From contig NZ_CP089468.1 of assembly GCF_021233435.1 (NCBI RefSeq), forward strand, positions 868,001-932,000: 64,000 nt of DNA, written 5' to 3'. A program made the translations under genes and the position numbers. This document shows, in pieces, positions 2,265-16,633 of the stretch (position 1 is the stretch's first letter; each line of letters begins with the position of its first letter). The stretch comes from Halobacterium noricense (GTDB taxonomy: Archaea > Halobacteriota > Halobacteria > Halobacteriales > Halobacteriaceae). The notes beneath the pieces are model-generated. The model was not told where the DNA came from. It ran no database searches and saw nothing but the letters and a program-made list of their open reading frames with translations.

Positions 2265-2523
2265 CGTTCGACAGAAATGCACCGACCGGGAGTCTCGCGA
2301 GCACAGCGAGCGAGACATCGGTCGGAAACGACCGGCGGGAGTGCACCGACCGGGAGTGAGCAGTCCGAAAGACTGCGAACATCGAAAGACGCCACGCGTC
2401 TTTCGGGATTTGAACCGTTGTGAGACGTTCCTGCTCGCTACGCTTCGCGGGCTGCGACTCACAGGGTTCAGAATCCCTGTGCATTTCGTCTCACTCCGTT
2501 CGACAGAAATGCACCGACCGGGA
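2265..2523. repeat. Duplicated tRNA-Gly 3' ends with intervening hairpins
   Basis: A 27-base sequence at 2265-2291 recurs exactly at 2497-2523. It covers the last 14 bases of tRNA-Gly plus 13 bases beyond its 3' end. A third copy of the acceptor end, GCACCGACCGGGA, lies at 2343-2355, and a T-arm fragment CGGGATTTGAACC at 2404-2416. Between them are hairpins, including one at 2383-2405 with 10-base perfect arms around CAC. The 3' end of a tRNA gene is a usual target of site-specific integrases, so the two 27-mers may be old attachment sites. Confidence 0.75.
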
Positions 2524-2581
2524 TTTGAACCCGGGCCATGAGCTTGGAAGGCTCAGGTCCTAGCCACTAGACCATCGGTGC
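2510..2581 (-). tRNA. tRNA-Gly (anticodon TCC)
   Basis: A 72-base cloverleaf on the minus strand with a perfect 7-bp acceptor stem (GCACCGA with TCGGTGC), discriminator A at 2510, anticodon stem TGAGC/GCTCA with loop CTTCCAA, and T arm CGGG-TTCAAAT-CCCG. The anticodon TCC reads GGA and probably GGG glycine codons. No intron is present and CCA is not encoded. Partial copies of both gene ends lie on either side. Confidence 0.95.
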
Positions 2582-10008: not shown

Positions 10009-10068
10009 GCGTGTGAGTACGTGCCAGTCGCCTTGAACCTCGTGCTTCTCGGGGCCGCTCGCCGGGCA

Positions 10069-10342
10069 GTGTTCAGATAAGCAGACGAAAGTAGCGGAGA
10101 CGACGTTGCCTTTTGAAAGCCCTCGGCAGTCTCGACTCCCGCGGCTCGCTGCGCGCGTTCGCTCCCGCTGGTCGCTCACGTGCTTACTTCGCCGGGGTTC
10201 GTCGAGACCACCTCGCCCTTTCAATCCGCCGGAAATCTCCGATTTCCGAGGCCTCGGGAGAGCGTTGCTCTCCCGGCGACCACCAGGGAATCGGCTGATT
10301 CGACGGCTGAAGCTGCAGTCAGACCAATCCTTATCTGAACAC
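10069..10342. mobile_element. MITE-like non-coding element with 13-bp terminal inverted repeats
   Basis: The left end GTGTTCAGATAAG (10069-10081) is the exact reverse complement of the right end CTTATCTGAACAC (10330-10342). An 11-base direct repeat, CCGCTCGCCGG, flanks it at 10055-10065 and 10345-10355 and may be a target duplication. The 274-base interior has no credible gene. It contains triloop hairpins at 10230-10248 (8-base arms, TCC) and 10255-10275 (9-base arms, GTT). A related block lies at 16188-16590. The rest of the gap 10009-10403 holds only the promoters of the flanking genes. Confidence 0.7.
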
Positions 10343-10403
10343 CACCGCTCGCCGGCGGACGACCGCGACAGCTTTTACCGCGCGAGGCCGTACCACCGAT
10401 ACG

Positions 10404-11896: not shown

Positions 11897-13137
<1,241 letters not shown>

Positions 13138-16161: not shown

Positions 16162-16187
16162 GCTCGTCGCGTCCGCGCTCTGCGATA

Positions 16188-16590
16188 GTGTTCAGATTTG
16201 TATACAAACCTGATGGAGAAGACGTAGCCTTCTGAAAGCCCTCGGGCGTCTGCGCTGTCGGAAGACGTTCCGGCTCACTGCGTTCGCGGGCTGCGACTTC
16301 CGTTGTCACGCTTGCGGTGCTCGCGTAACTCCCGCGACTCGCTGTGCTCCTCAGTCGCTTTGCTCCCTGCGGTGCTTGCATCGTCCTCAGAACGCTACGC
16401 GTTCTGATGGGTGGTTCGAGAGGACGAAGTCCTCTCGTCATCCCGAGAGACGCCGTCGGCGTCTCTCGGTCGACTGCGGAAGACGCGACGCGTCTTCCGA
16501 ACGTCGGGGTTCCCGCAGACGCCCTCGCCCTTTCAATCCGCCAGGGAAATCGGTTGATTCACTGGCTAGTTTCAGTAGTGTTCGGGCCTC
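16188..16590. mobile_element. MITE-like, hairpin-rich non-coding block related to 10069-10342
   Basis: This 400-base gap has no gene. Its left end GTGTTCAGAT (16188-16197) and the following GAGA-GACGT-GCCTT-TGAAAGCCCTCGG pattern match the 10.07 kb element. So do CTCGCCCTTTCAATCCGCC (16524-16542) and AAATCGG-TGATTC near its right end. The right inverted repeat is not intact. In between lie four perfect triloop hairpins: 16387-16407, 16417-16437, 16443-16469 (12-base arms) and 16477-16499. A near-perfect 20-base palindrome centred on TTTGTATACAAA lies at 16193-16212. Confidence 0.6.
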
Positions 16591-16633
16591 CGCGGGCGGC
16601 AGAACTATGGCCGTTCGTGTGTGAGTAGTACGC

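Follow-up and report, generated by a model that had tools for sequence, protein, structure and literature searches.

A one-end-truncated MITE of IS6-family type with a four-hairpin cassette in Halobacterium noricense, and block replacement within its palindromic core family

The stretch of Halobacterium noricense DNA analysed here, called the window, comprises 64,000 nucleotides (G000:C1:868001-932000) of a genome of 3.3 Mb (G000, the own genome) and contains two short elements, E10 and E16, both on the plus strand. E10 (10065–10346) is an intact 282-bp MITE with two hairpins and a perfect 8-bp TSD, GCTCGCCG, which is confirmed by an exact empty orthologous site (L128) in G004, the relative with the top protein identity in two gene searches (97% and 99%). 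Its core module (10115–10227, plus strand) scores 116.8 bits with the covariance model R1, and the hairpin search located its triloop hairpins at 10230–10248 and 10255–10275. Hairpins with a stem of at least 8 and a loop of 3–5 bases number 24 in the window, against 1–17 in ten shuffles, and six of the 24 fall within the approximately 680 bases of E10 and E16. Elsewhere in the window, the 3′ end of a tRNA-Gly gene (2510–2581, minus strand) recurs as short repeats at 2267–2360 and 2499–2525, with a perfect hairpin (2383–2405) between them, an arrangement that resembles the scars of integrative elements at tRNA genes. A TnpB/IS1341-type gene (11897–13137) is apparently split into two frames, as judged by eye from the translations.

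E16 (16184–16576, plus strand) is a MITE of IS6-family type without a right end. Its left terminal inverted repeat (16184–16200, plus strand) is a degraded version of the family form GGYRGTGTTCAGATAAG, with an exact AGTGTTCAGAT match at G000:C1:884187, and begins 4 nt before position 16188, where the earlier note had placed it. The left half of the core, with a subtype-specific insert, follows at 16232–16386 (plus strand), of which 16232–16385 is 86% identical to locus L208 of G004. The core right end (16502–16546, plus strand) terminates in CCTCGCCCTTTCAATCC and is 97.8% identical to L135 and L208. Between these parts lie the four perfect triloop hairpins that the earlier note had described: hairpin 1 at 16387–16407 (stem 9, loop TAC), hairpin 2 at 16417–16437 (stem 9, loop GAA), hairpin 3 at 16443–16469 (stem 12, loop GTC), and hairpin 4 at 16477–16499 (stem 10, loop GAC). 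Consistent with this layout, the core model matches E16 in two pieces, 16322–16401 (41.9 bits) and 16458–16539 (34.1 bits), with hairpins between them. E16 can be aligned collinearly with a TSD-flanked 431-bp copy at G000:C1:1581832-1582262 (248/326 and 50/60 columns), its similarity to intact copies ends at 16576, and from 16580 onwards the sequence matches that beside the empty site of the relatives; the right inverted repeat has thus indeed been lost, as previously proposed.

The cupin gene next to E16 is present in eight relatives. By eye, three of them (G004, G009, and G010) have an empty orthologous site; in G006 the neighbours are those of the own genome and the element is absent, although the junction has diverged, and in G002, G003, G005, and G012 the cupin gene has other neighbours. 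Comparison by eye with the empty sites revealed a duplicated target segment around E16, with a left copy GTCCGCGCTCTGCG at 16171–16184 and a right copy GTTCGGGCCTCCGCG of approximately 15 bp at 16580–16594. Since this duplication measures approximately 15 bp and not the 8 bp of the intact copies, the insertion or the truncation of E16 was no plain IS6 event.

The backbone of these elements is that of the IS6 family. Two elements of 697 bp and approximately 690 bp with GGYRGTGTTCAGATAAG ends encode IS6-family transposases (NF033587, E 4.1e-59 and 2.5e-58; PF13610), and the intact MITE copies share these ends with the resident IS, only the degraded left one being retained in E16. Among the own loci examined, 16 elements are bounded by both ends with at most two TSD mismatches, and 15 of them have a perfect 8-bp TSD. 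Their lengths are 113, 227–228 (the hairpin-free MITE form), 281–285, 391, 431, and 545 bp, in addition to the 697-bp IS, the MITE copies of 113–545 bp being too short for a transposase gene. For ten of the tested core sequences, ends and TSD together scored 14, compared to a maximum of 9 in 206 controls with swapped flanks. For most cores outside the own MITEs no TIR or TSD was found and, therefore, the IS6 link cannot explain the whole core family. At L097 (G057:C7) the core lies between different IS6-like ends, GGTAGTGGTAACTTAG, with the TSD GCGAGCAT; as these differ from the family ends, at least two MITE backbones may carry the core. By eye, an apparent second insertion sequence separates two portions of a MITE copy at L046 (G000:C1:1580700-1584200) that has a GTATGAGG repeat at its flanks, as if inserted into that copy. 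A hairpin-rich copy at L224 (G000:C1:2369000-2372100) is apparently nested in an older element, which is present without this copy at the G004 locus L204.

The core itself is palindromic and approximately 110 nt long. The covariance model matched it in 49 of the 294 phylum genomes searched, with at most 12 candidates scored per genome; all 49 are listed as belonging to the same genus, family, or order, four members of the order are listed with no match, and, as far as the order of this listing indicates, the core is apparently confined to the Halobacteriales. BLAST matches of E10 occur in 32 of 59 relatives, mostly through query positions 56–171. In the own genome the model matches at least 58 places, a lower bound because 150 of 6938 candidates were scored, and in G004 it matches 33. 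An exact scan of named genomes for core motifs returned at least 120 stretches, and the 80 matches listed are all haloarchaeal by title. Ten haloarchaeal plasmids from eight genera carry part of E10 (38–41% of the query). A phage origin of E10 was considered and rejected, the phage collection having given no match.

A comparison of 52 own cores with 30 of the 33 core loci of G004 and five other G004 loci indicates how the core evolves. Of the 27 own cores that match G004 on both flanks, two correspond to the vacant E10 and E16 sites, which leaves 25. A core-bearing ortholog in the G004 set is lacking for all 14 MITE-type cores, and most other full-length cores have one. Seven of the 21 ortholog comparisons were excluded for want of a clean alignment of the core ends (6331/L207, 390810/L214, 1985704 twice, 450959, 451150, and 146403), a criterion chosen after the data had been seen. 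The 14 clean pairs have outer flanks that are approximately 87–99% identical; their interiors are 93–100% identical in four pairs and 47–79% in ten, and in 10 of the 14 the core ends and flanks have been kept and the interior replaced as a block. The own core at 150447, for example, agrees with L185 at 59/60 positions of the left flank, 10/10 of the 5′ end, and 13/13 of the 3′ end, and at 61/97 of the interior, and the closest arms to those of L185 are found at L186, a different G004 site. The arms of L187 in G004 are nearest to those of the G009 locus L112; as the left flanks of these two loci are also alike (by eye), this suggests that it was the own lineage that changed at that site. In the pairs 2664469/L186 and 2667663/L194 the outer arms are the same and the tip is different. 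Replacement from other copies explains these interior differences better than point mutation. A strict recombination test, which looks for identical arms and identical tips in each of their four possible combinations, found no such set in 87 roughly parsed cores, and the shared core ends, 10–13 bases long, are short for homologous recombination. At five further loci (L072, L142, L189, L063, and L078) the end of one core arm now complements the other and the usual internal mismatch is lost, as would be the case if one arm had served as the template for the other.

The consensus fold, derived from 52 chosen sequences, contains 24 pairs, of which 20 have changed on both sides, with few one-sided changes. 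In a test set of 46 distinct sequences from the own genome and G004, all from loci outside model building, the covariation score was 0.648, compared to 0.169 for shuffles and 0.071–0.099 for slid pairs. Such strong covariation, together with conserved sequence blocks, would be expected if the core were a structured RNA gene or a cis-acting RNA that is spread by mobile elements and selected for RNA folding. The inner helix P4 offers further support, as it contains a conserved G-U pair (52/52 in the model set and 44/45 in a second set) and additional U-G pairs, which would suit an RNA or a protein site with sequence specificity and speak against a purely DNA reading of that helix. However, in helices P2 and P3 we counted 10 G-U and 15 A-C among 930 pairs in the first set, and 22 G-U and 16 A-C in the second and, consequently, wobble pairs are not clearly preferred there. 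The tRNAs of the own genome have 27 G-U among 683 pairs (32 tRNAs), a weak control because ARAGORN may report only accepted pairs. Moreover, both strands of the core fold well, whole arms are swapped between orthologs, and Rfam, in which only tRNA matched the window at gathering score, gave for seven core loci at E ≤0.1 a single mir-M7 match far below the cut-off. The gene context is also varied: by a rough GC3 caller, 38 own core matches comprise 17 between codirectional, 11 between divergent, and 4 between convergent genes, 5 "inside" a called frame, and 1 unclear case. We consequently regard an RNA identity of the core as unlikely, in spite of the covariation. A general role as bidirectional terminator was rejected, since merely 4 of the 38 sites lie between convergent genes.

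Folding as DNA, with copying between arms or copies, is favoured by two observations: wobble pairs in P2 and P3 are about as rare as A-C, unlike in tRNA, and both strands fold well. We tentatively propose that the core may represent a dispersed family of palindromic DNA in the Halobacteriales that evolves by exchange of whole interiors at fixed sites, with short conserved anchors and hypermutable tips, i.e., a shuffling of DNA cassettes whose covariation imitates that of RNA.

REP/BIME sequences, which are linked to RAYT transposases, are likewise dispersed extragenic palindromes. The core resembles these in being dispersed, mostly intergenic, and palindromic, and in that some copies form facing pairs (by eye, the right ends face each other in 4/4 close pairs of the own genome and 3/4 of G004), so that cores could be thought of as akin to REP sequences, with a Y1 (HUH) transposase mobilising them as single-stranded DNA. 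They are, however, longer (approximately 110 nt), the six own-genome loci with Y1 genes contained no core match, because of which a REP/RAYT linkage was rejected, and the end-bounded copies have IS6-type ends and 8-bp TSDs. Mobilisation by a Y1 enzyme thus seems quite unlikely.

Hypermutable tips are most evident in the hairpins. Eleven hairpin families were searched in the own loci and ten of these retained at least three copies. Deviations from the commonest form were found at 76/306 loop sites, 33/1020 flank sites, and 32/1852 stem sites, the stem count being low by design because arms with more than one mismatch are missed by the search. Triloops vary approximately ten times as much as neighbouring bases, often by inversion: counted by hand, 14 of the 37 loops that deviate have the sequence of the most frequent loop in reverse complement. 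The hairpins are often paired through a short linker, in 47 distinct pair forms, although a few of these look like chance pairs in genes.

In E16 the four hairpins form a cassette at the foot of the apical part of the core, which is its position in the E16 subtype. This cassette recurs at other sites, with identities of 132/140 to 134/142 in L046, L047, L051, and L054, and L221 is a fifth copy with the same four hairpins and linkers. Over the five copies the linkers differ at 0/155 positions and the triloops at 17/60 (Fisher p 6e-11). Two stem pairs have changed on both sides with pairing kept and three were counted as one-sided, two of the latter resembling halves of one symmetrical deletion; the cassette of L051 contains a symmetrical insertion. 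Because the same hairpins and invariant linkers occur in five other copies, the cassette must have arrived with the element, and the suggestion of the earlier note that hairpins accumulate in such elements after insertion fails for E16. Parts of it survive: when E16 is aligned with L208, which has a core of the same subtype, the cassette stands out as a single clean indel within the core, and at an old orthologous site it is present in the own copy (L221) and lacking in G004 (L208), so that hairpin load does change after a site has been occupied. This difference is explained by copy-to-copy exchange as well as by fresh accumulation. Differences in hairpin load between copies, and the different core positions that hairpins occupy in other genomes (e.g., at L106 and L108), are also what one-by-one accumulation in each element after insertion would produce. 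Nevertheless, with an identical set of hairpins and linkers elsewhere, and with E16 itself missing at three orthologous sites, we deem such accumulation improbable. E10 and E16 are different subtypes and not stages of one process.

The likeness of their left-end and internal segments, reported in the earlier note, is borne out by local matches of 43/51 (E16 16502–16551), 49/64 (16188–16251), and 18/20 (16328–16347), with a top score of 57, whereas 500 dinucleotide shuffles averaged 20.7 and reached 30 at most. The direct identity is modest and E16 is absent among the 74 BLAST matches of E10 within the own genome, so the relation becomes clear through other copies, but with these scores and 326 columns of collinearity with an intact copy, a chance likeness in GC-rich DNA can be dismissed with near certainty.

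Taken together, E16 is probably an IS6-mobilised MITE truncated at one end, with the order-wide palindromic core as its body and a four-hairpin cassette that was present before insertion. Judging from the shared ends, the resident IS6-family transposase would move the MITEs in trans. While their DNA is single-stranded in replication or repair, the palindromes may fold, and one arm or a different copy would then serve as the template, by template switching or short-tract gene conversion; such folding and subsequent copying would be the reason why hairpin arms and tips stay perfect and get exchanged. A candidate for opening the tips is a hairpin nuclease similar to Mre11-Rad50, whose action would account for their variable and often inverted loops; Mre11-Rad50 is reported to cleave hairpins (PMC6265447).

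Haloarchaeal IS6-family MITEs are already known from the available sections of earlier accounts, which describe two, of 227 and 336 bp, and give the names MITEBth2 and MITEHarch3 (PMC7986276; PMC6807381). Like these, the MITEs of this study have IS6-type ends, an 8-bp TSD, and no transposase, and their hairpin-free form measures 227–228 bp; neither a core nor a hairpin cassette is mentioned in those sections. Identity with MITEHarch3 is a lead only, taken from the name and lengths. MITEHsal2 of Halobacterium salinarum, 411–413 bp long with TSDs of 8 and 6 bp in the part of the report available (PMC10264941), is by that description alike in genus, size range, and TSD length and may be a relative. 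For Haloquadratum walsbyi, the accessible text on SMR-A describes an approximately 110-bp repeat with inverted ends, many copies, no target duplication, and unknown mobilisation, which targets near-terminal palindromes of IS605-type elements, SMRs being highly conserved (PMC3119063). By description, SMR-A is similar to the core in length, inverted ends, absence of a target duplication, and copy number; the cores studied here, however, are diverse. Double-hairpin elements and GC clusters, known from fungal and sponge mitochondrial DNA, are small intergenic repeats that form hairpins. The hairpins are alike, but those described here lie inside archaeal MITEs, and we do not claim kinship. No account of the core, of its spread across the order, or of the block exchange turned up in a literature search outside subscription journals and ISfinder.

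When base pairs covary strongly, selection on an RNA is the usual conclusion. In this family, joint replacement of the two arms of a DNA palindrome can account for much of the covariation. As two closely related genomes show such replacement at matched sites, the process is measurable, and the changes in the triloops record, under natural conditions, how hairpins are opened and copied in an archaeon.
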